Positions 20,216 to 35,849 of a DNA stretch of 64,000 bases are shown piece after piece. Position numbers and translations under genes: made by a program. This DNA comes from Niastella vici. GTDB taxonomy: Bacteria > Bacteroidota > Bacteroidia > Chitinophagales > Chitinophagaceae. The notes under the pieces were generated by a model. That model was given only the letters and a program-made list of their open reading frames with translations, made no database searches and was not told the origin of the DNA. Where the stretch lies: positions 1-64,000 of the forward strand of contig NZ_LVYD01000064.1 of the NCBI RefSeq assembly GCF_002077945.1. Reading direction: 5' to 3'. Every line of letters begins with the position of its first letter. Position 1 is the stretch's first letter.

Positions 20216-20282
20216 ATGCTTTTATTTAAATAAAAAATTTGTTATATATTAGACTATTAAACTTGGCCGTTAGATAACGTTT

Positions 20283-21380
20283 ATGCCTGATTTGACAACC
20301 CCTACGTTTACCGATCTGCCAGACCCTAAACCTACGGGCTCTGCGACAGCGCATCATGTCACTTACGGTAAGTTAATGATACCACAACAACAAATTCTGA
20401 CATATTCATCCGACGAATGGGAGCGTTTTATTGAAGAGTGGGCGGATAGTCAAAAATCATCTTATAAAAGGGTCGCACGATTTTCTGGCCCTGATGATAT
20501 GGGCATCGACGTTGCTGGTTTCACTGACGAAAAAGAGATTTATGGCGTCTGGGATAACTTTCAATGCAAACACTATAAAGACCCGTTAGGCCCGTCGAAA
20601 GCAGCATTAGAAGTAGGAAAAATTCTGTATCATAGTTATCAAGATCATTTTGCAATTCCAAGAAAATCTTATTTCATAGCCCCTAAAGATTGTAGTATTG
20701 CTTTGAAGAAGTTGTTGGGTGATCCTATACAACTTAAAAAGTATGTATTTAATAACTGGGACAATATATGCGCAGAAAAAATTACTTCCACTGCTAAAGT
20801 AGAGTTGGTTGACGATTTTAAGGACTACGCTGAGAAATTTGACTATTCAATTTTTACATCCAAGTCTACTCTTGAGATAATCGGAGAACATCGAAAAACG
20901 GCTTGGTTTGCCGTGCGTTTTGGAGGTGGTCTTCCCGAACGCCCAAAAGTAATACCTCCTCCTGATGAAGTTCAAATATCTGAAAGTCGATATGTTGAGC
21001 AGCTATTTGAGGCTTACAGCGATCATAAGAAGGCTTCCTTGAAGCAAGCCAGCGACTTGAGTGCTTGGCAAGAATTGACTGATCACTATAACAGGCAAAG
21101 AGAATTATTCTTTAATGCTGAGGCATTACGAAATTTTGCACGTGATAAGGTACCACCTGGAACATTTGATGAACTACAAAATGAGATATTCCATGGCGTG
21201 ATAGACATTGAAGCCGGTTTTCATGCGGACGCATTGATAAGACTAAATGCTGTTACATTTGCCGCTGCTAATCTACCTTTGACATCAAACCCGTTGATTA
21301 GCGCGGTGACAATCCAAGATAAAAAAGGTGTTTGTCACCAGCTTGCTAATGTAAATCGCTTAATTTGGAAAAAGCCATGA
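20283..21380 (+). CDS. ABC-3C effector: predicted nuclease component
   Basis: 365 aa. The N-terminal half has a restriction-endonuclease-like layout: helix with EWERFIEEWADSQ, then GPDDMGIDVAGF and WDNFQCKHYK (the D ... QxK catalytic pattern of Mrr-type enzymes). The C-terminal half matches the accessory domain style of ABC-three-component effectors. It overlaps the middle component by ATGA. In known ABC-3C systems the effector is held by the ATPase complex and released on invasion. Assignment is by gene order plus motifs. Confidence 0.78.
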   Translation: MPDLTTPTFTDLPDPKPTGSATAHHVTYGKLMIPQQQILTYSSDEWERFIEEWADSQKSSYKRVARFSGPDDMGIDVAGFTDEKEIYGVWDNFQCKHYKDPLGPSKAALEVGKILYHSYQDHFAIPRKSYFIAPKDCSIALKKLLGDPIQLKKYVFNNWDNICAEKITSTAKVELVDDFKDYAEKFDYSIFTSKSTLEIIGEHRKTAWFAVRFGGGLPERPKVIPPPDEVQISESRYVEQLFEAYSDHKKASLKQASDLSAWQELTDHYNRQRELFFNAEALRNFARDKVPPGTFDELQNEIFHGVIDIEAGFHADALIRLNAVTFAAANLPLTSNPLISAVTIQDKKGVCHQLANVNRLIWKKP

Positions 21381-21862
21381 ATTCACAAACTATAACTTTC
21401 AATAGTCCATTGGAATCTGGCCTTCGCTTGGTTGGATTACTTACAAAAGCGTACCCTATCACCTATGACATACAAAGGCTTGTTATTTTGGATTACTTTG
21501 TTGTTCATACTGGTGATTTGGGAGGGCCTGAAAGCTTACATGCAGCGTTGCCAATGAGATCAAAAGAGTTGCTTGTCAGAAGGAAACTTATTGAGAGTGG
21601 ATTGCTGCTTATGATGAGCAGAAATCTAATTGAGCGAATTGTATCCCCCGAAGGCATTTCGTATGCAGCAGGTGAAATGTCTGAGACTTTTCTAAACGCT
21701 TTAACAAGTCCATACTTGCAGAGATTGCTTGAAAGGGCTCAATGGGTTGTAGACAATTTTGGGATTATGAATGACGAATTGTTAAAAAGTACAACACGCA
21801 AATTTTTCGATGATTGGGTTGAAGAATTTCATACCATTCAACAAAGTTTAGGTGTTCAATGA
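21377..21862 (+). CDS. ABC-3C middle component
   Basis: 161 aa from ATG at 21377, which overlaps the upstream stop (ATGA); a TTG start 12 nt earlier is also open. Helical protein with ESGLRLVGLLTKAYPITYDI, LVILDYFVVHTGDLGGPESLH and SKELLVRRKLIESGLLLM, as in winged-helix middle components of ABC-3C systems. It should bridge effector and ATPase. Confidence 0.78.
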   Translation: MNSQTITFNSPLESGLRLVGLLTKAYPITYDIQRLVILDYFVVHTGDLGGPESLHAALPMRSKELLVRRKLIESGLLLMMSRNLIERIVSPEGISYAAGEMSETFLNALTSPYLQRLLERAQWVVDNFGIMNDELLKSTTRKFFDDWVEEFHTIQQSLGVQ

Positions 21863-23730
21863 ATGAGAATGCTATCATAATAAGGTCGCTTTGCTTTACT
21901 GGAAATAATAAACCAGATGCCCTACTAAATTTCGATAGGGGGTTAAACATCTTATATGGCGCTTCTGAGACAGGAAAATCATTTGTATTGGAAGCTATAG
22001 ATTATATGTTTGGCGCTTCCACCGAATTGCGTGATATACCAGAAAGAAATGGTTATGATAGGGTTTTTTTAGGCTTCGAAACACTCCAAGGTGAACAATT
22101 TACTTTAATGCGTTCAACTCAAGGTGGAAACTTTTTGCTTTTTACCGGACTTCATCAGAATCTACCCAACGATCAGCAAGGCGTCACCCTCGGAGCACGG
22201 CATAGTCCGAATAACGAGAACAATGTTTCAGGGTTTTTATTACAAAAATTAGGGTTGCAAGGAAAGCAGCTAAAAAGAAACGCAAAGGGTGAAACAAGGG
22301 CACTTAGTTTTAGAGATTTAGCTCATTTGTGCATAATTGATGAAACTGATATTCAAAAGAAAGGCTCGCCAATTGAAACCGGACAACATCTTTCAAAAAC
22401 ACTGGAATTTTCACTTTTTAAGCTATTACTAACAGGAGTAGATGATAGTTCATATGTTGCAATACTTGAAGAACAGGTTTCAGTTAAACCTCCTGATCCC
22501 AAAATTGAACTAATTGATGAACTAATAGTTTCAATCACCGGAAAATTATCACGCGAAGGAAACATTGAGGCAGATTTAAGGGCGCAATTAGCAAGGTTAG
22601 AGACAACTATTGCTGATAGACAAAATACCCTTCGCGAAAGTGAAAGGACTTACAGTACTCTCTTAAATTCATCATTGGATTTAAGAAAACGTATTCAAGA
22701 GGGTGAAAGCCGCCGATCTGAAATCAGCGAATTAATAGCAAGATTCAGACTTCTTGATGAGCATTATAAATCTGATCTTGAACGATTAGCGGCTATTAAG
22801 GAAGCGGGGTCATTACTTTCCGCTTTACCTCCAACTAGTTGCCCATTATGCGGAGCTTTACCAGATCACCAACATCCAGAAGAAGATGTTGATATGAACA
22901 CTGACAATATTATTCAGGCTACCACTGCAGAAAGTTTAAAAATACAAATGTTACAAAAAGAGTTGCAGGACACTATAACCGAGCTAAGCAGAGAGGGTGA
23001 GAATTTTGATAGAATTATTCCAACCTTGCAACGCCAAGAAAATGAAATTGCACAAAGGCTAAATACCTTCAATAGAAACTTGCTTTCGGATCGAGACGAT
23101 TTTGCCGCTTTACTAGAAAAGAAATTAGAAATTCGTTCGTCGATATCTATATTTGACCAAATAAATGAATTAAATCAACGAAAGGATGCTTTGTCCATTT
23201 CGGTTGGAACAAGTGCAGTACAACCTATTGAAACTACTCCTTCTCAAGTCATAGAACTTTCAACCTCAATTTTGGATGATTTTGCTATTCTGATCGAAAA
23301 AATTCTTAAAGACTGGAATTTTCCTGATGCTGAAAGAGTGCAATTTGATTCTACTTCAAGAGACTTGATAATTTCTGGCAAAAAGCGTGGCAGTCGAGGA
23401 AAAGGTATGAGATCAATTACTCATGCTGCGTTTTTGATAGGAGTTCTTGAATTTTGTAAGAATAAAAATTATTCTCATCCCGGCTTTCTGGTTTTAGACT
23501 CTCCGCTTCTTGCGTATCGTGAACCAGAAAATGACGAAGACGATCTATCAGGCACAGATGTCCAAGAGAAGTTTTACGAATATTTATCAGCTTGGACTGA
23601 TAGGCAGATTATAATCATCGAAAATATTACTCCACCAGATACAATTCTGCAATCATCCGCAAAAACGACGATGTTCAGTAAAAATGATCGGCAGGGGCGA
23701 TACGGATTCTTCCCACAAGACACTAAATAA
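21859..23730 (+). CDS. ABC-3C ATPase (SMC/Rad50-like)
   Basis: 623 aa. Walker A is LYGASETGKSFVLEAIDYMFG (residues about 32-52). A long coiled coil (about 220-420) is interrupted by a zinc-hook-like CPLCGALPDH, and Walker B (FLVLDSPLLAYREP) is near residue 545. This is the DNA-sensing ATPase of an ABC-3C anti-invader system. It overlaps the middle component by ATGA, so all three genes are translationally coupled. Base composition is AT-rich. Confidence 0.85.
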   Translation: MNENAIIIRSLCFTGNNKPDALLNFDRGLNILYGASETGKSFVLEAIDYMFGASTELRDIPERNGYDRVFLGFETLQGEQFTLMRSTQGGNFLLFTGLHQNLPNDQQGVTLGARHSPNNENNVSGFLLQKLGLQGKQLKRNAKGETRALSFRDLAHLCIIDETDIQKKGSPIETGQHLSKTLEFSLFKLLLTGVDDSSYVAILEEQVSVKPPDPKIELIDELIVSITGKLSREGNIEADLRAQLARLETTIADRQNTLRESERTYSTLLNSSLDLRKRIQEGESRRSEISELIARFRLLDEHYKSDLERLAAIKEAGSLLSALPPTSCPLCGALPDHQHPEEDVDMNTDNIIQATTAESLKIQMLQKELQDTITELSREGENFDRIIPTLQRQENEIAQRLNTFNRNLLSDRDDFAALLEKKLEIRSSISIFDQINELNQRKDALSISVGTSAVQPIETTPSQVIELSTSILDDFAILIEKILKDWNFPDAERVQFDSTSRDLIISGKKRGSRGKGMRSITHAAFLIGVLEFCKNKNYSHPGFLVLDSPLLAYREPENDEDDLSGTDVQEKFYEYLSAWTDRQIIIIENITPPDTILQSSAKTTMFSKNDRQGRYGFFPQDTK

Positions 23731-23787
23731 TTTTTGTACATGCAGTCCTAATTCTTCTTGTTAGACTTATGTTAGACTTTAACAAAA

Positions 23788-23818
23788 AAGCGACTATGAA
23801 TTTTGTTCATAATCGCTT
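23788..23818. terminator. Hairpin terminator between ABC-3C and tRNA scar
   Basis: AAGCGACTATGAA/TTCATAATCGCTT, 13 bp with one G-T, 5-nt loop. Six A on the left side and TTTTC on the right make it usable in both directions: for ABC-3C on plus and for the former tRNA on minus. Confidence 0.75.
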
Positions 23819-23829
23819 GATTTTCTTCG

Positions 23830-23859
23830 TGGTGTGGGGCGGGATCGAACCGCCGACAC
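23830..23859 (-). other. tRNA 3'-end fragment (attachment-site scar)
   Basis: On the minus strand GGCGG-TTCGATC-CCGCC is a perfect T-arm followed by CCACACC and A, i.e. acceptor 3' strand and discriminator. The matching 5' strand GGTGTGG and a D-arm are not found upstream. An intrinsic terminator follows. This is what remains at one end when an element integrates into a tRNA gene; the intact tRNA is not in the window. Confidence 0.55.
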
Positions 23860-23926
23860 GTTGACACTGATTTTGCTAATATCAGGACCAGCCGATCCGT
23901 CTTGTCATCCGTAACATAAACGAAAA

Positions 23927-23959
23927 GCCGCCCCTGAGCTCTGACACAACAGGGGCGGC
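23927..23959 (-). terminator. Intrinsic terminator after the outer-membrane protein gene
   Basis: GCCGCCCCTG/CAGGGGCGGC, 10 bp, followed on the minus strand by TTTTCG. It lies 30 nt after the stop of the porin-like gene. Confidence 0.8.
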
Positions 23960-23989
23960 GTGGCGATGAGGGTACGGCTTAAACTCTTG

Positions 23990-24631
23990 TCACGGCTTGG
24001 CTGGCTTCTTGCCAAACCGGAAATATAGCCCTGCCTGAATAGCGTTTATGGTGATGCGCTGGTTTGATGGGAATGTCAAAAGGCTTGCGCCTTTATCAGA
24101 GGCACGATTGCTCAGACCAAACACATAGCGCACGTCAATCCCAAAGCGGTATTTGAACGTCCATTCCAGCCCACCTACGGCGGATACTCCGGCCTTTGTA
24201 TAGCTGCTATCCGTCAAATTCAGGTTTTTCTGTTTTTGCTCATACGCATCATAATAATGCTGTTCGGCTTTCAGTAACACGTCCAGTTGCGGCCCGGCGT
24301 AAAAAGCTATCTTCCCGACATGGAGCTTGGCAAGAACAGGAATGGCAAGCTGGTGAAGCTGTTCAAACGCCGTCACGTTCTCCTTAACCGAATGGCCGAC
24401 ATAGAAAAACTCCGGCTGCAAGCTAAAATGCTTGTTAAACCGAACTTCGACCTGTCCCCCGGCATAGAAGTAATTGTCATCATTAACGCTTTGCAAGGGC
24501 GGTGCGATAACGGATGCGTTGAAATGCGGAAAGTTGAATCCGGCCTTGATGCCAAAGCGAACTTTACTTTGTGCATGGGCGCTTGTGAACATTCCCATAA
24601 AGGCTAACGGCAGCAATAGTTTTGGTGTCAT
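23990..24631 (-). CDS. Outer-membrane beta-barrel protein
   Basis: 213 aa. Signal peptide (LLPLAFMGMFTSAHAQ, cleaved near residue 20), then alternating strands (KVRFGIKAGFNFPHF, FYAGGQVEVRFNKHFSLQPEF) ending GLYFRFGKK. It matches small Bacteroidota OMP_b-brl_2/PorT-like barrels of unknown substrate. It is grouped with a lipoprotein and a resolvase in one direction, as cargo of the element. Confidence 0.8.
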   Translation of the reverse strand: MTPKLLLPLAFMGMFTSAHAQSKVRFGIKAGFNFPHFNASVIAPPLQSVNDDNYFYAGGQVEVRFNKHFSLQPEFFYVGHSVKENVTAFEQLHQLAIPVLAKLHVGKIAFYAGPQLDVLLKAEQHYYDAYEQKQKNLNLTDSSYTKAGVSAVGGLEWTFKYRFGIDVRYVFGLSNRASDKGASLLTFPSNQRITINAIQAGLYFRFGKKPAKP

Positions 24632-24662
24632 AGATCATGTTTAAAAGTGAAATGAATTTAGG

Positions 24663-25064
24663 TTATTGAAGCTGGATGTTTTTGCATTGGCTCTGCTCAC
24701 AGGGCACAGTGATGGTTCCCGTCCAGGTCTTTCCCGAGCAAGTCGCCTTATACGTGTAGGTTTTGCCCATATACAAATCGAAGGTGGCAAAGCGCCCATA
24801 ATTGACATTGTTGCATTGTGGCGGTGTGGGTGACGTGTAGGAAATCACTGCCTGATAGGGGCCAACGATTTTTCCGCTGGCGTCCTTCACTTCAACGGTG
24901 ATGCTGCCGCAAGAAAAATCATGATCGATCCAAAAAATGTAAGTGTTAGGTGGAACAACGCCGCTATAAGAGCCGCATGGATTACCGCCATCATCTTTCT
25001 TCTTACAGGCGGATAGAATTGAAATCGCGCATAGTATCGCTGTAAGCCATTGTTTCTTCATCAT
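24663..25064 (-). CDS. Lipoprotein with repeated cysteines
   Basis: 133 aa. The lipobox is AISILSACKKKDDGG, with cleavage before Cys20. The mature part is beta-rich with six further Cys (NPCGSY, DFSCGS, PQCNNV, KATCSG, VPCEQSQCKN), probably disulphide-bonded in the periplasm. It is encoded 31 nt upstream of the barrel protein and likely works with it. No family named. Confidence 0.75.
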   Translation of the reverse strand: MMKKQWLTAILCAISILSACKKKDDGGNPCGSYSGVVPPNTYIFWIDHDFSCGSITVEVKDASGKIVGPYQAVISYTSPTPPQCNNVNYGRFATFDLYMGKTYTYKATCSGKTWTGTITVPCEQSQCKNIQLQ

Positions 25065-25066
25065 CG

Positions 25067-25744
25067 TTATTTAGTTTTTGTTGTTAATTCATGTAACAGG
25101 TTATGCACTGTGCTGGCATGCCAGCCTGTTTTCTTATGATAGGTGCGGATTTTTCGGCGGTTGAGTTCTCCTAATATGCCCCTTTGCGTTGTAATGCCCC
25201 GTCGTTGCATCTTCTGAATGATGGGCCGCATCTTTTTTAAAAAAGCCTTCTTCTTCCGCCGCATTGTCTTTCTTCTCTTTTTACTGTTGCCACCCAGCTT
25301 TACGCCCTTATTTCTCGCTGATACCAAAGCATTTTTCGTGTTGCGGCTAATATCATCCCCTGCGAGATCGTCCATGAGCGCTTGAAACAGTTTTGAACGC
25401 TTGTCGGCTGTAGGATTGTCAACACTTTTAAAATCTAGGCCACTGTCAATCAGGTCATAAACAAATCCGAGGTTTCGGGCAATTCGGCTTTGATTAGCTG
25501 CATACAAGGACAAATTGTTTTTGCGGCAATAGTCGATTGTCTTTTTTAGTTTGGGACGCAGGCGGGGTCTGCCGCTGCCGATTTCAATAAATTCCTTGAC
25601 CAGTTGAATATTGTTAGCCTTGAAATAATAAGCGATAAGGCGTCTTTGTGCTGCCAGTCCTAATCCGCTTTTCCCTTGACGGCGTGTTGATACACGAAGG
25701 TGACTGACTCCTTTTTTAATTTGTTTGGTTGGTGTTCTGCTCAT
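25067..25744 (-). CDS. Small serine recombinase/resolvase
   Basis: 225 aa. The resolvase N-domain has the catalytic serine in HLRVSTRRQGKSGLGLAAQ, and the usual LDRLSR motif is altered to NQSRIARNLGFVYDL. A very basic linker (KKRRKTMRRKKKAFLKK) leads to a short helix-turn-helix region (RGITTQRGILGELNRR). It is probably a DNA invertase or resolvase of the element. Two bases separate it from the lipoprotein gene. Confidence 0.75.
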   Translation of the reverse strand: MSRTPTKQIKKGVSHLRVSTRRQGKSGLGLAAQRRLIAYYFKANNIQLVKEFIEIGSGRPRLRPKLKKTIDYCRKNNLSLYAANQSRIARNLGFVYDLIDSGLDFKSVDNPTADKRSKLFQALMDDLAGDDISRNTKNALVSARNKGVKLGGNSKKRRKTMRRKKKAFLKKMRPIIQKMQRRGITTQRGILGELNRRKIRTYHKKTGWHASTVHNLLHELTTKTK

Positions 25745-25976
25745 TTTATCCCAAGCATTAACTTGAGCAAAATTTTTAGAAATATTTCAAGATGGCATTG
25801 CGGCTGAAACGCAATACTATCCTATGTTTTATTGGATATCCGTTCTCAGACAATGAATGCAATTTCTGCTCATTTGTAACGTTCATATTCATCCGAACAA
25901 ATTATATTTGCTGTACGGTTATACTGCTCCGATTAGCTGCACTTAAAACATTCATTCCTCATTTAAACTTCCTCTC

Positions 25977-26345
25977 ATGAAAAATGTTTTGATGCAAGTG
26001 TGTCGAGCTACGCACCGTTACAACGAAAGACAAATCGCCGCCAAACTCGGCATGACACCCGAAGAATACATTGACCTGGAAACCGGCACCACCGTCATGA
26101 CGCCAAGGCAGGCCGAACAACTTTCCGATGTATATAACATAGAACGCGAATACTTTCTTGAATCATCCCAACAACTGGATTTATTGCTCGCTCGCGCCAA
26201 CGTGATATTGCACCATCAAGCGGAAATTGAACGGCTTAAAAAATTCGTGGTCGTCACAAAGACGCTGCTTCATGACAGCAACGCAGGGAATGAAATTACT
26301 GTGAACGAAAATGCTGGTTATGGACAAGAAACTGCACATCAATGA
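25977..26345 (+). CDS. HTH transcriptional regulator, Xre-like
   Basis: 122 aa. A helix-turn-helix at residues 10-55 (NERQIAAKLGMTPEEYIDLETG, then TPRQAEQLSDVYNIEREYF) resembles Cro/C1 repressors. A helical tail follows. Its end overlaps the next gene by 26 nt, so the regulator and the sigma-like protein are made from one transcript. Confidence 0.72.
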   Translation: MKNVLMQVCRATHRYNERQIAAKLGMTPEEYIDLETGTTVMTPRQAEQLSDVYNIEREYFLESSQQLDLLLARANVILHHQAEIERLKKFVVVTKTLLHDSNAGNEITVNENAGYGQETAHQ

Positions 26346-26832
26346 ACAGTTGCTCGTCGATTTACTGTATGCCAATAACAGACAGGCGTTTTCATTCGTC
26401 TATGATACGTTTTCGCCTGCATTGCATGGCAGTCTTATTGACCTGATTGAAACCGACAAAGAACGAGCGGTTCATGTCATGGAAGATGCGTTTACAGCCG
26501 TCGGACAAGCGCTTCAATCTTACGATGAAGGCCAACAAAAACTGTTTACCTGGCTGCTGCATATGATGCACCAGTTAGCCATCGTCGCTTTGCGGCAACT
26601 CAATAAATGCCCGCAAGCGGATGAACTGGAACGCCTGTCCATCGGCTTGCGCCAGAAACTTCTGACCATGAACCGTGGCCAGCGCTGTGTGATTGAACTC
26701 ATTTATTATAAGGGATATTCCAAAACGCGGATTTCTCAGGCGCTTCATATTTCAGTCGAAAAGGTAGATCAACTTCTACAGGCTGGGTTGCAGCATTTAA
26801 AACAGTATATCAATTACTGCTTCCAGGAGTGA
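26320..26832 (+). CDS. Sigma-70 family-like protein
   Basis: 170 aa from ATG at 26320 (an ATG nine bases earlier is equivalent). The C-terminus is sigma region 4-like: LLTMNRGQRCVIELIYYKGYSKTRISQALHI then SVEKVDQLLQAGLQHL. The N-terminal part is compatible with region 2 but weak (NNRQAFSFVYDTFSPALHGSL). It could direct RNA polymerase to element promoters. No anti-sigma factor is adjacent. Confidence 0.65.
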   Translation: MDKKLHINEQLLVDLLYANNRQAFSFVYDTFSPALHGSLIDLIETDKERAVHVMEDAFTAVGQALQSYDEGQQKLFTWLLHMMHQLAIVALRQLNKCPQADELERLSIGLRQKLLTMNRGQRCVIELIYYKGYSKTRISQALHISVEKVDQLLQAGLQHLKQYINYCFQE

Positions 26833-26864
26833 TTTGATCGTATATCCCTTAAATACAAACAGGC

Positions 26865-27338
26865 ATGCAAGTCTATACTGAATATTTCGCAAACGAAAAG
26901 GCTTTATTCAAACGTGTCAATACCATCCTGAAGAAAAACGGCATATATGATATCACAGGGCGGAAGGGGCAGTTTACCATTGCTTATACGTTCAGCAAAA
27001 ATTGTCGAATTGCTTACACTGTTCTGAAAGGAAGAGACGACAAGGGATTTAAACTTACAATTGGCGGTAAGGAAACACCCAGACAAGTGATGTATCTTAA
27101 AAAAGGAGATATTCTGTACTTACATTATCAGAGGAAAAAAAAGGCATGCTTTTATTGTCCCAAAGCACTCATAGGAAAACGCGAATTTAGAATGGAAGCG
27201 AGCATCGGTTACGCTTGGTATGGCACACTGGAAAACATGATGGAAGAAGGATTAATTAAAAACAACTTGAACTGTGATATAAGTACCTATTTTTCTCAAT
27301 TATTAAATCAAGACTATGGAAGCATTTGTTCTCGATGA
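26865..27338 (+). CDS. Hypothetical protein upstream of symE-like gene
   Basis: 157 aa, mixed alpha/beta, no signal peptide. Basic middle with KKGDILYLHYQRKKKACFY. It overlaps the SymE-like gene by 23 nt. It might be a partner or antidote of that protein, but this is positional only. Confidence 0.6.
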   Translation: MQVYTEYFANEKALFKRVNTILKKNGIYDITGRKGQFTIAYTFSKNCRIAYTVLKGRDDKGFKLTIGGKETPRQVMYLKKGDILYLHYQRKKKACFYCPKALIGKREFRMEASIGYAWYGTLENMMEEGLIKNNLNCDISTYFSQLLNQDYGSICSR

Positions 27339-27669
27339 AAAGATCACGGAAGATTATTTAGACGTTAATGAGCGCTCGGAAGCGCGTGCGAAACGGGTAT
27401 TTAACCAAATGAACCGTGCTTTGACCAATATTACCCACCTCTCGAAATACCTAAGCCAACGGGATGCTGCCGGCATCCGAACCCTCAAAATCACGGAAAT
27501 CTCTTTCGTGAATTATTCCGGCAAATATTACCACTACCCCCATATCCGGTTGGCTGGGCGGTGGCTAGAACGGGCCGGGTTTAACCTTGGCGACACTGTT
27601 CAGGTCATTACGATCCATGGCATGGTGCTGATTGTACCAATGCAGCCGCCGAAAGTGTGTTTGAAATAA
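27316..27669 (+). CDS. SymE-like toxin-family protein
   Basis: 117 aa. The C-terminal half has the SymE/AbrB-like barrel pattern: HIRLAGRWLERAGFNLGDTVQV followed by HGMVLIVPMQPP. SymE in Escherichia coli is an SOS-induced toxin limited by an antisense RNA. The N-terminal 50 residues are extra and helical. No antisense RNA could be identified by eye. Confidence 0.75.
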   Translation: MEAFVLDEKITEDYLDVNERSEARAKRVFNQMNRALTNITHLSKYLSQRDAAGIRTLKITEISFVNYSGKYYHYPHIRLAGRWLERAGFNLGDTVQVITIHGMVLIVPMQPPKVCLK

Positions 27670-27684
27670 GAGCGCCAATAAAAA

Positions 27685-27704
27685 AGCCTCCCGGAGGGGA
27701 GGCT
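27685..27704. terminator. Hairpin terminator after the SymE-like gene
   Basis: AGCCTCCC/GGGAGGCT, 8 bp with a 4-nt loop, 15 nt after the stop. The A-run on the left makes it strong for minus-strand transcription; on plus it lacks a T-run. Confidence 0.55.
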
Positions 27705-27918
27705 GCACTAATCAAATACCATTAACCATTAAACCTTATCCTAGACCTGAATGTAGGAAGAAAAAAACATATGTAAAAATCAGTGCAGCAATTTTCCAAC
27801 GCGCTACAGGAATACCCGAAACGCGGGGTATACGGTTTTATCAGTATGCTTCTGCAGCCATTCACAAATTGACCGAAACACTATTCGGCATGATGTAAAT
27901 TGCATCCCTAGATTCCCC

Positions 27919-28191
27919 ATGACCTTTCAGATCACCATAGACTACCACAAGCGCAAAATCCGGCTGTCCGTCGAGCAACTTTTCATTAATGAGCGTTTAG
28001 AGCGGTACAGGGTGACCGCCAGTAACGGCACGATCGAGATTGAATCCAACCGCCCGTTGTTTCGCTCCCGGGGACTGAAACAACGCCCCGGAAACTGGAT
28101 ACAAACCGCGGGCAAACCGTTGGGCGACCATGCGCTCCAATTAATCGCCGAAGCTATCCAAAGCCATGTTGAACAGAAAAGCAGTCAATAA
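27919..28191 (+). CDS. Hypothetical protein (90 aa)
   Basis: Beta-rich N-terminus (MTFQITIDYHKRKIRLSVEQ) and a basic middle (RGLKQRPGNWIQTAGKPLGD) before a helix. Small proteins of this look are frequent in Bacteroidota mobile regions; no function is known. Nine bases before the next gene, so probably one operon. Confidence 0.6.
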   Translation: MTFQITIDYHKRKIRLSVEQLFINERLERYRVTASNGTIEIESNRPLFRSRGLKQRPGNWIQTAGKPLGDHALQLIAEAIQSHVEQKSSQ

Positions 28192-28206
28192 TTCTTAAAT
28201 TTGGTG

Positions 28207-28950
28207 ATGGCACAGAATCAGGATGATAAGACAATAGAATATATTACTACCACTTTTCAGGACTTTGCTCTTGCTGATATAAAGTATAATAAAGATCGTC
28301 CCATTGCAGCGGCATTGCTTTCCGGCTGCTTGCTGGATCAAATAAGTGGTTTCTTTTTTGACAAAGGAAAATCTACAGATAAGGCAAGATTGTTTGTAAA
28401 AAAATATATGCCAGAATATGCTAATATTGGGATATACGATATTCTGCGTAGCCCATTAGTACACAATTATTCCCTGCCAGCAGGCTATTCTGTAACCAGC
28501 GATTCTGCATTGGCTGGTATGGGCATGGCGATCCTTCCTAATGGCATCATATACATTCCGTTTTTTATTCAGGATTTAGAAGTGGCTGTTAATCAAGCTA
28601 TAAAAGATTTGAAAGAGGATAAGGAAATCCGAAAACATGCTTTAAAATGGGAAAAATTGCATCCTGTTCTTAAAATGAATAAAACGGATATGGGCGTTTA
28701 TTCTGATGATGAAATCAAACGGCTGGAGGCCTATTTCATACCCAAAATACAACAACATCCCATTATTAAATCGGAGCCTCTTGAATGGCGCATGCTAACC
28801 CAGGAGCTTTCGAATAAGAAATTTCATGCTTTCATTGAAATAAAACAGCTAACGGGCAAAAAAGAAATCAACCAGTATTCACTAGAAAAATTTGTGCAGG
28901 CAATCGGAATGGAATCACCCGTTGATTATCTCGAATCTAATCCCTTATAA
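28207..28950 (+). CDS. Hypothetical protein (about 248 aa)
   Basis: Soluble helical protein from MAQNQDD at 28207 (an upstream GTG/ATG pair is nearly equivalent). The segment PIAAALLSGCLLDQISGFFF, then RLFVKKYMPEYANIGIYDIL, resembles an N-terminal all-alpha domain of unknown function seen in Bacteroidota. The C-terminal third is charged. It is the last conventional gene before the permuted tRNA-like unit. Confidence 0.65.
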   Translation: MAQNQDDKTIEYITTTFQDFALADIKYNKDRPIAAALLSGCLLDQISGFFFDKGKSTDKARLFVKKYMPEYANIGIYDILRSPLVHNYSLPAGYSVTSDSALAGMGMAILPNGIIYIPFFIQDLEVAVNQAIKDLKEDKEIRKHALKWEKLHPVLKMNKTDMGVYSDDEIKRLEAYFIPKIQQHPIIKSEPLEWRMLTQELSNKKFHAFIEIKQLTGKKEINQYSLEKFVQAIGMESPVDYLESNPL

Positions 28951-29011
28951 TGTTCTGATAATCAAATTTTTATTGCTGCTCATGAAATATAAATATTTTT
29001 TGTAACTTTAC

Positions 29012-29096
29012 GTCGAAGTGAACTAAACTTAATGCCCGTCTGAATAAGAGTGCGGGTTCGAGTCCCGTCCTCCGAACACCAAATGTTCACTTCGAC
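29012..29096 (+). repeat. 12-bp perfect inverted repeat woven into the permuted tRNA
   Basis: GTCGAAGTGAAC (29012-29023) and GTTCACTTCGAC (29085-29096) are exact complements. The left arm is just upstream of the tRNA 3' half, the right arm is in the linker. Pairing them crosses the acceptor and anticodon stems, so the RNA would be either a pseudoknot or a two-state switch. Confidence 0.85.
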
Positions 29097-29130
29097 ATTC
29101 GGAGGTGACGAAATTGGCAGACGTAGGGCA
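29033..29130 (+). tRNA. Circularly permuted tRNA-Leu-type gene (3' half first)
   Basis: The 3' half comes first: anticodon-stem strand TGCCC (29033-29037), variable arm with TCT/AGA (29038-29050), T-arm GCGGG-TTCGAGT-CCCGT (29052-29068), acceptor CCTCCGA and discriminator A (29069-29076). After a 22-nt linker comes the 5' half: acceptor TCGGAGG (29099-29105), TG, D-arm ACG-AAATTGGCAGA-CGT (29108-29124), A, and anticodon-stem strand GGGCA (29126-29130). Acceptor 7/7 and anticodon stem 5/5 pair perfectly. A promoter-like AT-rich stretch precedes it and a terminator follows. The anticodon loop is the open end. It is not a tmRNA: a full D-arm and anticodon stem are present. Confidence 0.75.
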
Positions 29131-29140
29131 CTTGCATTTG

Positions 29141-29167
29141 AAAAGCCGCAAAATTTGCGGCTTTTTT
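29141..29167 (+). terminator. Intrinsic terminator of the permuted tRNA unit
   Basis: AAAAGCCGC, loop AAAATTT, GCGGCTTTTTT: a classic plus-strand terminator 11 nt after the tRNA 5' half. It defines the 3' end of the small transcript. Confidence 0.85.
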
Positions 29168-29196
29168 GTTTATGTCTGTAAACAAATAATATCTAT

Positions 29197-29403
29197 ATGG
29201 TTCTTGATCAAAATGGAAAACAGCTCTCGCCTTGCATTGTTGCCAAGGTCAGGCATGCTTTGGGTCTTACAAATAAGCGCCCAACAAATAATAAGCGGTG
29301 TCATCCCGATTATTGGGAAAGAACTTGCGGTGAAATTGGTAAAGGACAACCGCAAGAAGAAATCCAACGGGTTATCGACCTGTACCTTGAATACATGAAT
29401 TAA
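29197..29403 (+). CDS. Small hypothetical protein
   Basis: 68 aa, basic, two Cys (SPCIVAKVRHALGL, RTCGEIGKGQ), acidic helical end. It starts 30 nt after the terminator of the permuted tRNA. No family recognised. A longer frame overlapping its start is probably a shadow. Confidence 0.5.
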   Translation: MVLDQNGKQLSPCIVAKVRHALGLTNKRPTNNKRCHPDYWERTCGEIGKGQPQEEIQRVIDLYLEYMN

Positions 29404-29518
29404 ACACCTGACCCGTCGAATTGTCACTCTGGCAGTTCGCTAAAGGCGATCAAATCGATCAATATTTGGTTCGACAATTCTATCTCTTTGGGTACAAAGG
29501 TTCAACCTTGGCAAAATT

Positions 29519-29550
29519 AAAGGGCTTTCCGATGCATCGGGAGGCCCTTT
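29519..29550 (+). terminator. Long hairpin terminator
   Basis: AAAGGGC ... CCGATGCATCGG ... GCCCTTT folds as an interrupted stem and is followed by TACTTTTG. It is about 115 nt after the 68-aa gene. The 276-nt gap to the next gene holds this and an 8-bp repeat (GAATTGTC/GACAATTC) but no gene that I can support. Confidence 0.65.
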
Positions 29551-29679
29551 TACTTTTGTACAAGCGACTAAAAAAGGTTAATTTTTATAACCGGATACAT
29601 TAGAATTCTTTCTTCCCAAAAAAAGAAGTTCATAACGGGTCGACAAAAAAAAATACGATCACTTATAAAATTTTTAGAA

Positions 29680-30237
29680 ATGAAAAAGCTCGTTTGGATT
29701 TTATCAGCGTTGATCAGTTTGTTGTTTTGTTATTTCCCTTCTTCAGCCCAGCAGGGACAGTCGCAGGTAAAAAAAATAATAATTATCCGTCATGGCGAAA
29801 AATCGAATGAAGGTGATAATCTTTCCTGTCAGGGATTCAATCGTGCTTTGCAGTTAGCCAATGTATTAAATAAAAAGTTTGGAAAGACTGATTATATTTT
29901 CGTTCCCACTATTAATACAGGAAAGAAAACCAGTACGGCAAGAATGTACCAGACCGTTGTTCCTTATGCTATAAAATACGATCTCGGTATCAATACCAAA
30001 TATGATGTGGAGGATGCAAAAGGTTTGGCGCAGGATGTTTTAAAAAGGAACGGAACCGTTTTAGTGGTTTGGGAACATAAGCATATCGACAATATTTTGA
30101 AAGCTTTTGGAATTGATAATAAAGAAAAATGGCCCGATGAAGATTTTGATTCCATCTGGATCATCAATTTTCAAAAGGGAAAGCCTGTGATTGCAAAAGA
30201 TAAGGAAGGTATTAGTCCGGCTGCAGATTGCAAATAA
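29680..30237 (+). CDS. Secreted histidine phosphatase family protein
   Basis: 185 aa. Signal peptide (MKKLVWILSALISLLFCYF ... SSAQ), then the catalytic IIIIRHGEKSNEGDNLSCQG, an arginine/threonine helix (TGKKTSTARMYQT), and the second catalytic histidine in VVWEHKHIDNIL. It is a periplasmic or secreted phosphohydrolase of the phosphoglycerate-mutase fold; substrate unknown. It is the first clearly chromosomal gene to the right of the element. Confidence 0.85.
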   Translation: MKKLVWILSALISLLFCYFPSSAQQGQSQVKKIIIIRHGEKSNEGDNLSCQGFNRALQLANVLNKKFGKTDYIFVPTINTGKKTSTARMYQTVVPYAIKYDLGINTKYDVEDAKGLAQDVLKRNGTVLVVWEHKHIDNILKAFGIDNKEKWPDEDFDSIWIINFQKGKPVIAKDKEGISPAADCK

Positions 30238-30274
30238 AATAAAAGCTTCTTATTTTACAGGCAATCTTACAATT

Positions 30275-30703
30275 ATGGACACTCTCCGGTACTTATTCCC
30301 TTTTGTTTTTGTTGGCATGTGGATCCTGGTAACTTTCATACTCTCAAAGAAGGGCTGGGCTGATCTGGTCGCCTCCTATGAAACCAATGCTCATTTTTCA
30401 GGGGAAAGAGTAGGTGTAATATCAGCAACAATCAATAATGCTAATTATAAAAATTCGCTTGTTTTAAAGTATAATGAAGAGGGTCTTTATTTAAGACCTA
30501 TTTTTTTATTCCGCTTATTTCATAAACCAATATTAATTCCCTGGAAAGAAATTAAAGAAGTAAGAAGCAAAAAAATTCTCCTTTTCCCTTACAAAGAGCT
30601 CATCATAGGGCATCCTTTTGTTGCTGCTGTCAGTATAAATAATAGCGTATTTAATAAAATAGAGAATAGTATCAATACATATTCCATTCCACCCGCCAAT
30701 TAA
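30275..30703 (+). CDS. Membrane-anchored hypothetical protein with PH-like domain
   Basis: 142 aa from MDTLRYLF at 30275. One N-terminal TM helix (YLFPFVFVGMWILVTFIL) precedes a beta-rich domain (LVLKYNEEGLYLRPIF, ILIPWKEIKEVRSKKI), the pattern of bacterial PH-like domains. Unknown function. A terminator-like hairpin follows. Confidence 0.65.
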   Translation: MDTLRYLFPFVFVGMWILVTFILSKKGWADLVASYETNAHFSGERVGVISATINNANYKNSLVLKYNEEGLYLRPIFLFRLFHKPILIPWKEIKEVRSKKILLFPYKELIIGHPFVAAVSINNSVFNKIENSINTYSIPPAN

Positions 30704-30812
30704 TCGCGTACTGTCTCATCACCCCTTATGTGCAAATATCATAGGCGCCAAATATGCTAAACGCGCACTACCTATTGTATTTTAGACAATTTTTCCCCGG
30801 TACTAAGTAATA

Positions 30813-30843
30813 AAGCCTTGTAAATTAAAAATTTACGAGGCTT
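30813..30843 (+). terminator. Hairpin terminator-like repeat
   Basis: AAGCCTTGTAAATT/AATTTACGAGGCTT, 14 bp with one mismatch and a 3-nt loop, about 110 nt after the previous stop and followed by TAAAG. Confidence 0.55.
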
Positions 30844-30950
30844 TAAAGTTCGTACACCAGTCAGCGTTCCATGCAACCTGAAATTATTATATATCTTGTA
30901 CGCGAAACCTTCAAAACAACCAAAAACTTTATCGTAAACCCTTCAACCCC

Positions 30951-33900
30951 ATGAACAGGCAATTAAACCTGGGCGCTTTTTCCCGGACTTTTATCCTTTT
31001 ATCTTTTTCGAACAAAAAATCAATCCCTTTCTTTTTTTCACTGGCATTACTACTGTTATTTCAGACTGGTCATGCACAAAGTTTGATCTGGGCTAAAGGC
31101 TTTGGCGACCCCAGTTCCTTAGGTGGTAAAATTGTTGGCACCGGTATTAAAGCCGATGCAGCAGGGAACACCTATGTAACTGGTTACTTTTATGCAACTG
31201 CCGATCTTGACCCGGGTACGGGCATTGCGAATGTAACCAGTATCGGCGGCGCTGATATTTTTATTGCCAAATACGATGTATCGGGCAATTATGTGTGGGC
31301 TAAAAGCATCGGCGGAACTGCCGATGATGATAGCAGCAGCATCACCATAGATGGCAGCGGTAATGTTTATGTGACGGGTTATTTCAGGGGAACTGCTGAT
31401 TTTGACCCCGGCACAGGCACGGCTAATTTAACAAGTGCAGGTGGTGCAGATATTTTTCTGGCTAAATATGATGGTTCCGGAAATTATCTATGGGCAAAGA
31501 ATATGGGCGGAGCCGCTGATGATATCAGCACCGGCATTGTAGTAGATGCTTCCTCCCACATTTATATAACAGGATCATTTAACGGTTCAGGCGATTTTGA
31601 TGCAGGCGCCGGTACTGCCAATCTTACAAGTACGGGCGGGACCGATATCTTTCTCTCAGCCTACGATGGCGCTGGTAATTATCTGTGGGCAAAAAATATG
31701 GGTGGAACCGGAACGGATAGCGCACTGGCTGTTTCACTGGATGCCAGCGGCAATATATACATTACCGGCTCTTTTTCCGGTACAGCCGATTTGGATGGCG
31801 ATGCACCGGCGGTCAGTTATACCAGTGTTGGCAATGCCGATATCTTTTGGGCAAAATATGATGTTTCTGGCACATTCGCCTGGGCAAAAACTATAGGTGG
31901 TACAGGTGATGACATTGGCCGTGGTATTAACGTGGATATTGCCGGTAATGTATTTCTCACTGGTTCTTTTTCAGGCACCGTTGATTTTGATGCCGGCGTT
32001 GGCACCGCAAATTATTCAAGCTATGGGGGTACCGACTTCTATTTAGCCAAATACGATGCTTCGGGTAATTATGCAGGGGCCGTTACTGCGGGCGATACAG
32101 GAGACGATTTTGGACGAAGTATTACATCTGATGCGGGCGGTAATATTTATATGATAGTTACATATTCCTCTAATAACAATGATATAGAAATTATCAAGTT
32201 CGATGTGACGGGGAACCCAGAATGGATAAACGATATCACAGGCGCCGGTGACGACAACGGCAACTGCATAACCGTAGATGGTAATGGAAATTCCTATAGT
32301 ACCGGTTATTTTAGTGGGACAACGTCTTTCTTCGGCGGCGGCACCCTTACCAATGCCACTTTAACGAATGCATTTGTAGCAAAACAAAAGAGCGATGGCT
32401 CTTATGGTTGGGCAAGCCAGTTAGGGCGATATGAAACCGTGGTATCATCAGTTGCAACGGGAAAAAAAGTTGCCCTGGATGGTAGTGGCAATGTGTATGT
32501 AACCGGTTATTTTAATGGTAGTGTCGATTTGGATGCAGGCCCGGGAACTGCCACATTTACAAGTGCCGGTAGTAACGATATCTTCATTGCCAAATACGAT
32601 GGCAATGGTAATTACCTCTGGGGAAAACAGATTGGCGGCTCAGGTGCTGATGCAGGCATTGCGATTGCTGTAGATGCTACCGGTAATGCCTACGTAACCG
32701 GAACATTTAATGGTATCGTAGATTTTGATGCAGGTACAGGCACCGCGAACCAGGGTCTTTCTGGATGGTTCAGTACATTTCTAACAAAGTATGATGCTGC
32801 AGGCAATTTTGTATGGGCAAAGGGTTTTTCACCGGTAACTTCGGGAAACTCCCTGCCATATGGTATTGCGATAGATGGAAGTGGAAATGTGTTTGTGACC
32901 GGATCTCTTTCTGGAACTGTTGATTTTGATGCAAGTGCGGCAACGGCTAACCTCACGAGTAATGGTTCTTTTGATGTATTTTTTGTGCGTTATGATGCAG
33001 CCGGCAATTTTGGCTGGGCAAACCGCATAGGCGGCACAGGCCTTGAAAACGTCAGTGGTATTACTACAGATGCCAGTGGTAATGTGTATATAAGCGGAGC
33101 ATTTAACGGAACGGTAGATTTTGATGCCGGGGCTGGTTCGGCAACCCTGACAAGCAATGGCGGCAGTGATATTTTCATAACCAGGTACGATGCATCGGGT
33201 AATTATACCTGGGCCAAAAATATAGGTAACCCAGGCACCGACAATTCGCTTGGTATTGCCACAGATCAAACTAACTATTTGTATATAACGGGTTACTATT
33301 ACGGTACCGTTGATTTTGATCCCGGCGCCAGTGTTAGTTCTTTGACAGCTTCGGGCGGTTCAGATGTGTATGTTGCTAAATATGATCTCTCAGGCAATTA
33401 TGTATGGTCGAAAAGCATGGGTGGCAGCGGAAATGACGTGAGCAGTAATATTACAGTCAATGGTAACGGTGATGTGTATATCTCCGGTTATTTCGCCGGT
33501 ACTGCCGACTTTGATCCTTCAACTGCCACAGCGAATGTTACCGCTTCCGGCACAAGCGATTATTTTCTCGCCCGCTACAATGCGTCGGGTAATTACATAG
33601 CTGCAAAAAGTATGGAGGCTACTACGGTTAAAAATATCAGTGGCCTTGTTGTTGATGCGGGCGGCAATGTATTTACAACCGGTTATTTTAAGGGTACGGT
33701 CGATTTTGATCCGGATGCGCCTGTTTACAACCTGGTAAGCATGAATAGTTCTTCTGACATTTTCCTTGCTAAATACAATCTGGCCGCAACGCCTCTACCA
33801 GTAACCCTGCTCGACTTTGATGCTAAATCTCAGCAATCGAATGTACATGTTACCTTTACAACCACCGAAGAACTCAATAACAATTATTTTGAAGTGCTGC

Positions 33901-34355
33901 GGAGTAACGATGGCGTGCATTTTGAAACCATCGGAAAGGTAAATGGTTGTGGTAATTGCTCAGCAGGAATGCAATACAGCTTCGATGATGGGCATCCTTA
34001 CGCCGGAACCTCCTACTATCGTCTTAAACAGGTTGACAATAATGGCGGATATAGTTTAAGTAAAATAGTCACCGTTAAATTCAGCAACCAAACGATAGCA
34101 GATGTGTCAATGTATCCTAATCCGGCTAATGGCCACTTTTTATTGAAAATACAAAACAGCGGTAACAGCAGGCAAATACAGGTAAGTATCAGTAATGCTT
34201 CCGGTTATGTGGTGCAGCAATTACATCCGGTTATTGTACAAACTGAAAATAAGATCCCGGTCGACTTGAGCAAGCAACCGGCCGGTATCTATTTTATTCA
34301 GGTCATCGATGCTGTTGGCGGCGAACCAACAACGCTGAAGGTGATAAAATATTAA
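30951..34355 (+). CDS. SBBP-type beta-propeller repeat protein, T9SS exported
   Basis: 1134 aa. A signal region (LLLLFQTGHAQ) precedes about 18 repeats of about 50 residues, each with SGNYxWAK, a GG/D segment, SGNxYxTGxFxGTxDFD and DIFxAKYD. These are SBBP repeats of propeller blades. The end has a domain with EELNNNYFEVLRSNDGVHFE, then the type IX sorting domain VSMYPNPANGHF ... GIYFIQVI. The protein should be exported and attached to, or released from, the cell surface. Ligand unknown. A terminator follows. Confidence 0.9.
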   Translation: MNRQLNLGAFSRTFILLSFSNKKSIPFFFSLALLLLFQTGHAQSLIWAKGFGDPSSLGGKIVGTGIKADAAGNTYVTGYFYATADLDPGTGIANVTSIGGADIFIAKYDVSGNYVWAKSIGGTADDDSSSITIDGSGNVYVTGYFRGTADFDPGTGTANLTSAGGADIFLAKYDGSGNYLWAKNMGGAADDISTGIVVDASSHIYITGSFNGSGDFDAGAGTANLTSTGGTDIFLSAYDGAGNYLWAKNMGGTGTDSALAVSLDASGNIYITGSFSGTADLDGDAPAVSYTSVGNADIFWAKYDVSGTFAWAKTIGGTGDDIGRGINVDIAGNVFLTGSFSGTVDFDAGVGTANYSSYGGTDFYLAKYDASGNYAGAVTAGDTGDDFGRSITSDAGGNIYMIVTYSSNNNDIEIIKFDVTGNPEWINDITGAGDDNGNCITVDGNGNSYSTGYFSGTTSFFGGGTLTNATLTNAFVAKQKSDGSYGWASQLGRYETVVSSVATGKKVALDGSGNVYVTGYFNGSVDLDAGPGTATFTSAGSNDIFIAKYDGNGNYLWGKQIGGSGADAGIAIAVDATGNAYVTGTFNGIVDFDAGTGTANQGLSGWFSTFLTKYDAAGNFVWAKGFSPVTSGNSLPYGIAIDGSGNVFVTGSLSGTVDFDASAATANLTSNGSFDVFFVRYDAAGNFGWANRIGGTGLENVSGITTDASGNVYISGAFNGTVDFDAGAGSATLTSNGGSDIFITRYDASGNYTWAKNIGNPGTDNSLGIATDQTNYLYITGYYYGTVDFDPGASVSSLTASGGSDVYVAKYDLSGNYVWSKSMGGSGNDVSSNITVNGNGDVYISGYFAGTADFDPSTATANVTASGTSDYFLARYNASGNYIAAKSMEATTVKNISGLVVDAGGNVFTTGYFKGTVDFDPDAPVYNLVSMNSSSDIFLAKYNLAATPLPVTLLDFDAKSQQSNVHVTFTTTEELNNNYFEVLRSNDGVHFETIGKVNGCGNCSAGMQYSFDDGHPYAGTSYYRLKQVDNNGGYSLSKIVTVKFSNQTIADVSMYPNPANGHFLLKIQNSGNSRQIQVSISNASGYVVQQLHPVIVQTENKIPVDLSKQPAGIYFIQVIDAVGGEPTTLKVIKY

Positions 34356-34377
34356 TAGATCATTCATTGCATAAAAT

Positions 34378-34410
34378 GGGCCGTTCGCCAATTGGCGAGC
34401 GGCCCATTTT
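34378..34410 (+). terminator. Strong intrinsic terminator
   Basis: GGGCCGTTCGCCA/GGCGAGCGGCCC with ATT loop and T-run (ATTTTTG) 22 nt after the propeller-protein stop. Confidence 0.88.
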
Positions 34411-34462
34411 TGTTATTTTGAGCCCGTTTTTATAGTTTTAATGCGCTTTTTAAAACCAGCCT

Positions 34463-35506
34463 ATGTTCAAAAAATTGTTTCAAAGCCTTTCGTCAACCGG
34501 CAAATTATATGAGAATATCCGGAACGATAACTACAGGAATTGGGAATCCCATTTCGAAAATTTCAACAGCACCAACGCTAAAAAAGCTGATCCGGTTCAA
34601 TTACAATCACTTGGGTTGGAGATCTATGAACATTATCTGAAGGAGGTCATTCAGGATTATGCAATCACCGATGGGGAGAAAGAGATCCTGACCAGAATAA
34701 AAGAGTATTTCCAGCTGCCCGATTCGGCTATTAATTCTATTAAAGGTAAATACGCAAAAAACGCCCTGAATAATTTGTCAAAACAGATGCTGGCCGATAA
34801 CCAGTTAACTGCAGATGAAATAAAAGAAATGGGGCTGTTTGCCCAAGAGTTAAATATTTCTGCGGAAGAAGTGAACCGGGTAAATAAGCTAAACGCTTCT
34901 GAATTATATGAGAGCGCAGTAAAGCAGGTGCTTTCCGATAAAATGGTAACTGTTGAAGAACAACAGTCGTTGAAAATGCTGGCCCAACAACTGGGCATCA
35001 ATATGCGGGAGGCCTCAATTGATATGAAACTGCGGGAAGAATATTATTTTCTCACCCTGTTAAATGCGCTGAACCAGGGGTATTTGCCTGAAGTAAAACC
35101 ACCTGCTATTGAAACCCAACAGGATGAAGTGGCGTGCTGGGAAATAAGTTCAAACCTGGTGGCCGCCAGAACGCTTAATTCAGGACCTTATAACAGCGAA
35201 GGCGTACGTATCAGAGTGGAAAAAGGCGCTTCGTACCAATTGGGTTCAAGCAGGAATACGCCTATGATAGGCGAAGTAAGCGCCAACCACCAGGGCGTAT
35301 TTGTTATAACCAGTAAGCGGGTGGTATTTGCTGCCAGTCAGCAATCGTTTTCAATACCATTTACGCAACTGCATTCTTTTGATGCGTATGCCGACGGTAT
35401 AGGTTTGCAAAAGGATGATACAGAGCTGCTGCTGCAATTCTATGACAAACAAATGTCTGAGGTGGTATTCAAGGTGCTTACCAACGCCATCAATAAAGAT
35501 CACTGA
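34463..35506 (+). CDS. TerB-like protein with PH-like C-terminal domain
   Basis: 347 aa. The N-terminal two thirds are three TerB/EF-hand-like helical repeats (YAITDGEKEILTRIKEYF, DNQLTADEIKEMGLFAQEL, DKMVTVEEQQSLKMLAQQL), each an acidic turn followed by a helix pair. The C-terminal part is beta-rich (GVFVITSKRVVFAASQQSF), like SHOCT/PH domains of bacterial membrane sensors. It is probably cytoplasmic and membrane-associated. Exact role unknown. Confidence 0.78.
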   Translation: MFKKLFQSLSSTGKLYENIRNDNYRNWESHFENFNSTNAKKADPVQLQSLGLEIYEHYLKEVIQDYAITDGEKEILTRIKEYFQLPDSAINSIKGKYAKNALNNLSKQMLADNQLTADEIKEMGLFAQELNISAEEVNRVNKLNASELYESAVKQVLSDKMVTVEEQQSLKMLAQQLGINMREASIDMKLREEYYFLTLLNALNQGYLPEVKPPAIETQQDEVACWEISSNLVAARTLNSGPYNSEGVRIRVEKGASYQLGSSRNTPMIGEVSANHQGVFVITSKRVVFAASQQSFSIPFTQLHSFDAYADGIGLQKDDTELLLQFYDKQMSEVVFKVLTNAINKDH

Positions 35507-35584
35507 ACCAGCCGTTGCCATTCATAAAAGAAGCCATGGCAATCTTTCATAATTGTTGTAACTTATATACATAAATTATCTGTT

Positions 35585-35746
35585 ATGAAAAGAGCTGTGG
35601 TGATCATTACGCTTCTGGCCTTTATAGGGCTTGTTGCATTTGCAAGTTTCAGCAGGATGAACAGGATAAGAAATGAAAAAGCTCCGGTAAAACAGGAACA
35701 AAAGATGGAGAAAAAAGAACGCAGGCATCATTGCATGTTCTCCTGA
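35585..35746 (+). CDS. Small membrane-anchored basic protein (53 aa)
   Basis: ATG at 35585 to TGA at 35746. One N-terminal hydrophobic helix (VVIITLLAFIGLVAFASF) then a very basic tail with a final HHCMFS. It is followed at once by a terminator, which supports it as a real gene. No known family. Confidence 0.55.
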   Translation: MKRAVVIITLLAFIGLVAFASFSRMNRIRNEKAPVKQEQKMEKKERRHHCMFS

Positions 35747-35764
35747 CAAAAGGCAATAAAAAAA

Positions 35765-35797
35765 GCAGGACTCAGAATTTTAATTCTGATGTCCTGC
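35765..35797. terminator. Terminator between the 53-aa gene and the RND pump
   Basis: GCAGGAC ... TCAGAAT/ATTCTGA ... GTCCTGC; A-run on the left serves the minus-strand pump operon, and the hairpin follows the plus-strand gene by 18 nt. Confidence 0.75.
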
Positions 35798-35849
35798 CAC
35801 CCTTCTAAAAACTACTCCTTTCTGTTGAACTATTCCTGCCTGCCTTTTC

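Follow-up and report, generated by a model that had tools for sequence, protein, structure and literature searches.

Circularly permuted tRNA genes are recorded for archaea and algae, and the parts of a 2014 review available to us, which describe bacterial tRNA genes as structurally uniform, record none for bacteria (PMC4033280). A bacterial permuted tRNA gene was likewise not announced in the titles or abstract openings of the literature searched, a body of work that lies mostly outside subscription journals. According to the accessible text on the Cyanidioschyzon merolae and Thermofilum pendens genes, both halves share a strand, the 3' half being upstream and a short spacer separating it from the 5' half, as in the unit described here; in the examples given there the break falls at T-loop positions 59/60, whereas our unit is broken in the anticodon loop (PMC3218864). 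Permuted order and base-paired pieces are also shared by two-piece tmRNA, which the consulted portion of the source describes as probably processed by RNase P and tRNase Z (PMC3985003). Among tRNA-like RNAs, the excerpts seen report that the YrlA Y RNA can be superposed on tRNA if the order of its parts is circularly permuted (PMC11472068), and that its tRNA-like domain might, as one suggested possibility, be a competitive inhibitor of an anticodon nuclease (PMC7790460).

A stretch of 64,000 nt from Niastella vici (contig NZ_LVYD01000064.1, positions 1 to 64,000), hereafter the window, was analysed, and all unprefixed coordinates refer to it. It carries a unit in which two tRNA-Leu halves stand in swapped order. 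We propose, with a probability of about 0.4, that the unit, part of an integrated mobile region, is a candidate gene for a small non-coding RNA that mimics tRNA-Leu in circularly permuted form and does not decode. The first-pass annotation knew of no established bacterial class of permuted tRNAs. For tRNA genes this agrees with the review text available (PMC4033280); for tRNA-like RNAs it does not, given YrlA, as described in the excerpts seen (PMC11472068), and three YrlA-like RNAs in the N. vici genome itself.

Architecture of the unit

Both halves lie on the plus strand. The 3' half (29033–29076) comes first, and consists of the anticodon-stem 3' strand TGCCC (29033–29037; tRNA positions 39–43), a class II variable arm, GTCTGAATAAGAGT, with a 3-bp stem (29038–29051), the T arm GCGGG-TTCGAGT-CCCGT (29052–29068), and the acceptor 3' strand CCTCCGA with the discriminator A73 (29069–29076), immediately 3' of which no CCA is encoded. 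A linker of 22 nt (29077–29098), holding an arm at 29085–29096, separates the acceptor 3' strand from the 5' strand. The 5' half (29099–29130) is formed by the acceptor 5' strand TCGGAGG (29099–29105), a D arm of the Leu type, ACG-AAATTGGCAGA-CGT (29108–29124), and the anticodon-stem 5' strand GGGCA (29126–29130), followed by CTT and then by unrelated sequence. The acceptor strands form 7/7 pairs (29099–29105 with 29069–29075) and the anticodon-stem strands 5/5 (29126–29130 with 29033–29037); the D stem (3/3), the T stem (5/5, one of them G-U) and the variable arm (3/3) are likewise fully paired, each pair having been checked. The first-pass annotation had placed the halves and the linker exactly, and its counts for the acceptor, anticodon and D stems hold pair by pair.

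In tRNA order, the halves display U8, the Leu-type D arm, the short class II variable arm and a standard T arm. The break points of both fall inside the 7-nt anticodon loop, and the missing piece is the anticodon itself. ARAGORN called no tRNA at the unit in its native order, with introns allowed or not; given the normal order and a hypothetical loop, it calls an 83-nt cloverleaf. Among 22 tRNAs of the N. vici genome that were compared, the re-ordered unit aligns best to the five tRNA-Leu.

Covariance scores and tandem tRNA pairs

A covariance model, R1, was derived from six ordinary tRNA-Leu that had been permuted in silico, with the window left out. The search with such a model, proposed in the first-pass annotation, found the unit at 73.1 bits (E 4.6e-22 on the window, 7.2e-20 over the whole genome), a score that by itself is shared by tandem pairs. 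Together, the stems and this independent model confirm the swapped tRNA-Leu halves, and a chance origin in random sequence is excluded. R1 also scores ordinary tandem tRNA pairs, with a maximum of 84.3 bits in the case of a Leu-Leu pair, because their inner halves stand in identical order. Since tandem pairs equal the score, the swapped order by itself is no proof of function; the R1 score shows two well-kept tRNA-Leu halves, not a gene permuted by design. The features that go beyond the score are the undetected outer halves, the breaks in the anticodon loop, a 12-bp complementarity between leader and linker, and a terminator.

The frequency of tandem pairs with a Leu member, and their equal R1 score, favour a close rival of the mimic at this single locus. 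The unit may possibly, though this is not the reading that we prefer, be a non-functional relic: a mobile element would have brought in a tandem tRNA-Leu pair, of which the inner halves alone were left after deletion of the outer ones or, as another example, after integration events at the anticodon loops. Anticodon loops are crossover sites of tRNA-targeting integrases, which fits such a route. The relic demands, however, two losses of an outer half with both breaks in one 7-nt loop, and searches of the genome detected neither outer half. A DNA search of the N. vici genome (E up to 0.001) returned only the unit itself and its terminator in inverted orientation, RF00005 gave zero matches in 20000–40000 at E up to 5, and outer halves were not detected by the R1 search of the genome (21 matches, the weak ones inspected in part). 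Neither an intact copy of the parent tRNA nor an outer half was thus found in this genome, an outcome that lost halves would equally produce. An ordinary tRNA-Leu with the acceptor of the unit was not found by the patterns tried, which also counts against the relic.

The anticodon loop

The first-pass annotation described the unit as a circularly permuted tRNA gene. The permuted tRNA-Leu architecture agrees with that term, which is not supported in its algal and archaeal sense. The two edges allow eight 7-nt loops, with Lys, Thr or Ala anticodons and none for Leu (0/8), and no bulge-helix-bulge was found, helices located within 5 nt of the anticodon stem reaching at most 3 bp. A permuted tRNA gene of the algal or archaeal type is therefore unlikely, and the unit differs in both respects from the C. 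merolae and T. pendens genes.

It is, accordingly, highly improbable that the unit is a permuted tRNA gene in the strict sense, with a transcript that is made into a decoding tRNA through circularisation or ligation, for instance by RtcB. The cloverleaf is complete once re-ordered and an RtcB gene is present in the genome, both of which speak for it. Bacterial LeuRS is not known to require the anticodon for charging; a product charged with Leu that reads Lys, Thr or Ala codons would misread, and rejoining therefore looks unlikely despite the RtcB gene. The absence of a bulge-helix-bulge helix also counts against a decoding product, as do the five ordinary class II tRNA-Leu (taa, tag, caa, cag and gag) that the genome already holds. 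The acceptor of the unit occurs neither in these five nor in two shorter tRNAs, labelled Leu by ARAGORN, that sit in a divergent array of the same genome (seven tRNAs, from the examined part of 66 tRNA matches). A divergent tRNA gene array is located ~4 kb from the RtcB RNA ligase gene (L054 and L182, G000:C1:149.9–156.0k, where G000 is the N. vici genome).

Comparison with YrlA and tmRNA

YrlA (RF02553; PDB 6CU1) resembles the unit in the circular permutation of the tRNA order, with T arm, acceptor and D arm following each other in one RNA. The N. vici genome has a tandem row of three YrlA-like RNAs, the tRNA-like domains of which are permuted (L052 3470–3970; G000:C48:158.47–158.97k), directly preceded by a TROVE/Ro60 gene (L052 1897–3456). 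Their scores against RF02553, 37.2, 37.0 and 26.4 bits, are all below the gathering score of 69, and the basal stem is clear in two of them (15 and 10 bp) and measures 7 bp in the third. These neighbours of TROVE, the shared order of arms, and sub-threshold YrlA matches in arrays upstream of Band_7 genes in two other genomes (G440 and G997) would fit a divergent YrlA-type Y RNA that has lost its basal stem, which we nevertheless consider quite improbable for the unit. RF02553 does not match it at E up to 5 (20 kb) or even up to 10 (241 nt). In YrlA, a basal stem between the 5' and 3' ends binds Rsr/Ro60; the best leader-tail helix of the unit is 5 bp before the terminator and 7 bp with it, against the 15, 10 and 7 bp of the YrlA-like RNAs, and no TROVE domain was found in nine neighbouring proteins scanned (18929–28947). 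The unit also possesses an anticodon stem and, as variable arm, one of class II, which, with the 22-nt linker, distinguish it from YrlA. Because it lacks an RF02553 match, a basal stem and, as far as the neighbouring proteins were scanned, a TROVE gene next to it, the unit is not classed as YrlA. Compared with two-piece tmRNA, the unit has a Leu-type cloverleaf and is far shorter than the length of a tmRNA, and RF00023 yields just 7.2 bits over 15 nt of it.

Transcription signals and predicted folding

A weak -7-like promoter element, TAACTTTA (29003–29010, plus strand), can be read by eye upstream of the unit, and we take it to be a putative form of the Bacteroidota-type -7 consensus TAnnTTTG. 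No good -33 box was seen by eye near 29003–29010, and a sigma-70 scan gave no site there. The intrinsic terminator reported in the first-pass annotation is present: a 12-bp hairpin with a T run (29140–29166, plus strand) begins 10 nt past the 5' half. The prediction that the unit is its own transcription unit is plausible.

The leader contains an arm (29012–29023, plus strand) that, in a repeat search, is a perfect 12-bp complement of the linker arm at 29085–29096. This complementarity was reached by 0/20,000 shuffles of leader and linker, with a shuffle maximum of 10, and it is left unexplained by a relic.

The fold of 29011–29167, terminator included, is better than those of shuffled sequences (z -3.3; 1/200 as good). 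The unconstrained minimum-energy fold, at -53.1 kcal/mol, contains neither the cloverleaf nor the leader-linker hairpin; when enforced, the cloverleaf reaches -45.6 kcal/mol and the leader-linker helix -49.6 kcal/mol, so that predicted folding energies do not favour the cloverleaf. The two would together form a pseudoknot and may be mutually exclusive. Co-folding of the trimmed pieces keeps the acceptor, T and anticodon stems, with the D stem replaced by pairing between D loop and variable arm; the untrimmed pieces retain the acceptor and T stems alone.

Proposed processing and function

We infer transcription, processing and function of the mimic from the layout described above. A transcript of ~150 nt (~29012–29167) would fold into a tRNA-Leu cloverleaf, with the linker joining the acceptor ends and the anticodon loop open, a process that the 12-bp helix between leader and linker would hold or time. 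RNase P and RNase Z could remove the linker, as the accessible text proposes for permuted tmRNA genes (PMC3985003), and would leave a two-piece tRNA-like RNA that is held by the acceptor and anticodon stems and receives an added CCA. Such a product would not read codons and would act through its recognition as tRNA. It would either serve as a tRNA-like handle of the kind found in YrlA or engage, as decoy or competitor, an enzyme directed at tRNA, such as LeuRS or an anticodon nuclease. The mimic is favoured by permuted tRNA-like RNAs elsewhere in the same genome, and probably in two relatives also; against it stand the missing homologue, the equal scores of tandem pairs, the fold energies, the pseudoknot and the weak promoter.

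A more specific form of the proposal, which we regard as unlikely, is a stand-alone mobile permuted tRNA-Leu gene that gives a two-piece, anticodon-less tRNA-Leu, recognised as tRNA, perhaps leucylated and without decoding, serving as a nuclease decoy or as a leucyl donor outside translation. If it were true, the unit would represent a bacterial class distinct from both YrlA and permuted tmRNA. A permuted tRNA-Leu with all recognition arms and no anticodon would also be a natural test of mimic function without decoding. The interpretation given in the first-pass annotation stands as regards the permuted tRNA-Leu architecture and the terminator, and not as regards a tRNA gene of the algal or archaeal type or, for tRNA-like RNAs, the want of a bacterial class.

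Genomic context

The gene for tRNA-Leu(UAA) (3166–3252) adjoins a large recombinase-like gene, named from its sequence, on the minus strand (3199–4914). In the relative G001, the gene that starts at ~34.4 kb in the window sits 64 bp after tRNA-Leu(UAA). About 31 kb (3253 to ~34400) is therefore inserted in the window, with the unit inside. The unit had been assigned to the edge of a mobile element; the mobile region is borne out, and the unit lies within the insert (~3253–34400) rather than at its edge. This location in an integrated region beside tRNA-Leu(UAA) and a recombinase-like gene favours the relic. The inserted region contains genes that read as relaxase-like and coupling-protein-like, together with an integrase-like protein, a resolvase and an ABC-three-component protein. 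Genes of the ABC-three-component type, with a CTD6 domain and an ATPase-like protein, occupy 20283–23730 of the insert and are possibly involved in defence. The tRNA-Leu(UAA) region was considered as an attachment site and set aside, as its matches elsewhere in the window are of at most 15 nt and mark no ends of the element.

An ORF for an uncharacterised protein without a Pfam match (28219–28947) ends ~60 nt before the leader of the unit. An R-x4-H-N motif, of the kind present in HEPN ribonucleases, is kept in 7/7 sequences of this protein (the window and six homologues), and the AlphaFold model built from the single sequence is poor (mean pLDDT 57.9). A pair of HEPN toxin and RNA antitoxin was rejected: a tRNA was called at 0/6 of the homologous loci, where the sole R1 match scores 7.7 bits. 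Past the terminator lies a 68-aa ORF (29197–29400), to which a similar stretch is present in 2/293 other genomes searched; the copy in G352 is within a 287-aa open frame.

Search for homologues and related arrays

Patterns specific for the permuted acceptor gave 0 matches in genome contigs and 0 in viral contigs, collections from which the N. vici genome and very near ones were possibly excluded; three copies of one chance arrangement matching such a pattern in viral contigs were discarded. The 5'-half pattern, TCGGAGG with the Leu D arm in its AATTGG form, had one match in genome contigs, located outside any called tRNA, and 0 in viral contigs. The combination of TCGGAGG with the Leu D arm was thus not seen as a tRNA, which fits a separate evolution with pairing preserved. 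In BLAST against plasmids and phages, none of the matches listed extended over more than 28% of the 186-nt query, and the records that were opened carried ordinary tRNA parts and were dismissed as homologues.

R1 was further run, with stricter Infernal filters, on overlapping, evenly drawn samples of 394 genomes from the family, 395 from the class and 396 from the order. The family survey (E up to 1e-8) matched 126 genomes, and 18/19 of the new loci inspected overlap a tRNA called by ARAGORN, the exception being L075. The class survey (E up to 1e-12) gave 42 rows, 12 of them without a locus, with such an overlap at 28/28 new loci inspected; for the order (E up to 1e-12; 30 rows) it was 24/25, L175 being the exception. 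The inspected loci are mostly Leu-Leu pairs, with several Gly-Leu pairs. Six of them (L074, L076, L079, L081, L086 and L139) have a single called tRNA and were taken by eye as pairs of which one member is degraded or cut; decayed partial duplicates of tRNA-Leu in relatives, so judged, again support the relic. The first-pass annotation had suggested looking for the same order in relatives. The architecture of the unit is absent among the inspected matches from the three overlapping samples, and these include no permuted homologue. As no homologue was found, the unit has neither covariation nor conservation evidence.

L075 and L175, the sole inspected R1 matches free of an ARAGORN tRNA, led to arrays of tRNA-like units upstream of Band_7 (slipin-like) genes in G997 (L181 190–430) and G440 (L180 ~5800–6010, minus strand). 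By eye, the array units can be read as permuted, their acceptor hairpins being closed, and a Leu-type D arm is present in one unit of each array. RF00005 also matches part of the G440 array, at 47.2 bits and thus over the cut-off, as a tRNA in normal order without an anticodon arm, and the unit order is therefore ambiguous in that part. The array units resemble the window unit in being read as permuted and in the one Leu-type D arm per array, and differ from it in acceptor loops of 3–5 nt, a tandem organization and the Band_7 gene downstream. Their Leu units keep the full anticodon arm, and the break point is therefore elsewhere than in the window unit. These arrays point to a recurrence of permuted tRNA-like RNAs in this group, and not to kinship with the window unit. 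The window unit, taken with the Y-RNA-like RNAs and these arrays, hints at several kinds of permuted tRNA mimic in this bacterial group.

Odd tRNA-like RNAs were also noted at two further places, L064 (G000:C1 ~420.6–421.0k, two in tandem) and L009 (G133:C24:46.5k). Neither has an Rfam match over the cut-off, and L009 is without an ARAGORN call. These RNAs display a Leu-like D arm, a hairpin of the GCCCTC..GAGGGT type and a long variable region.
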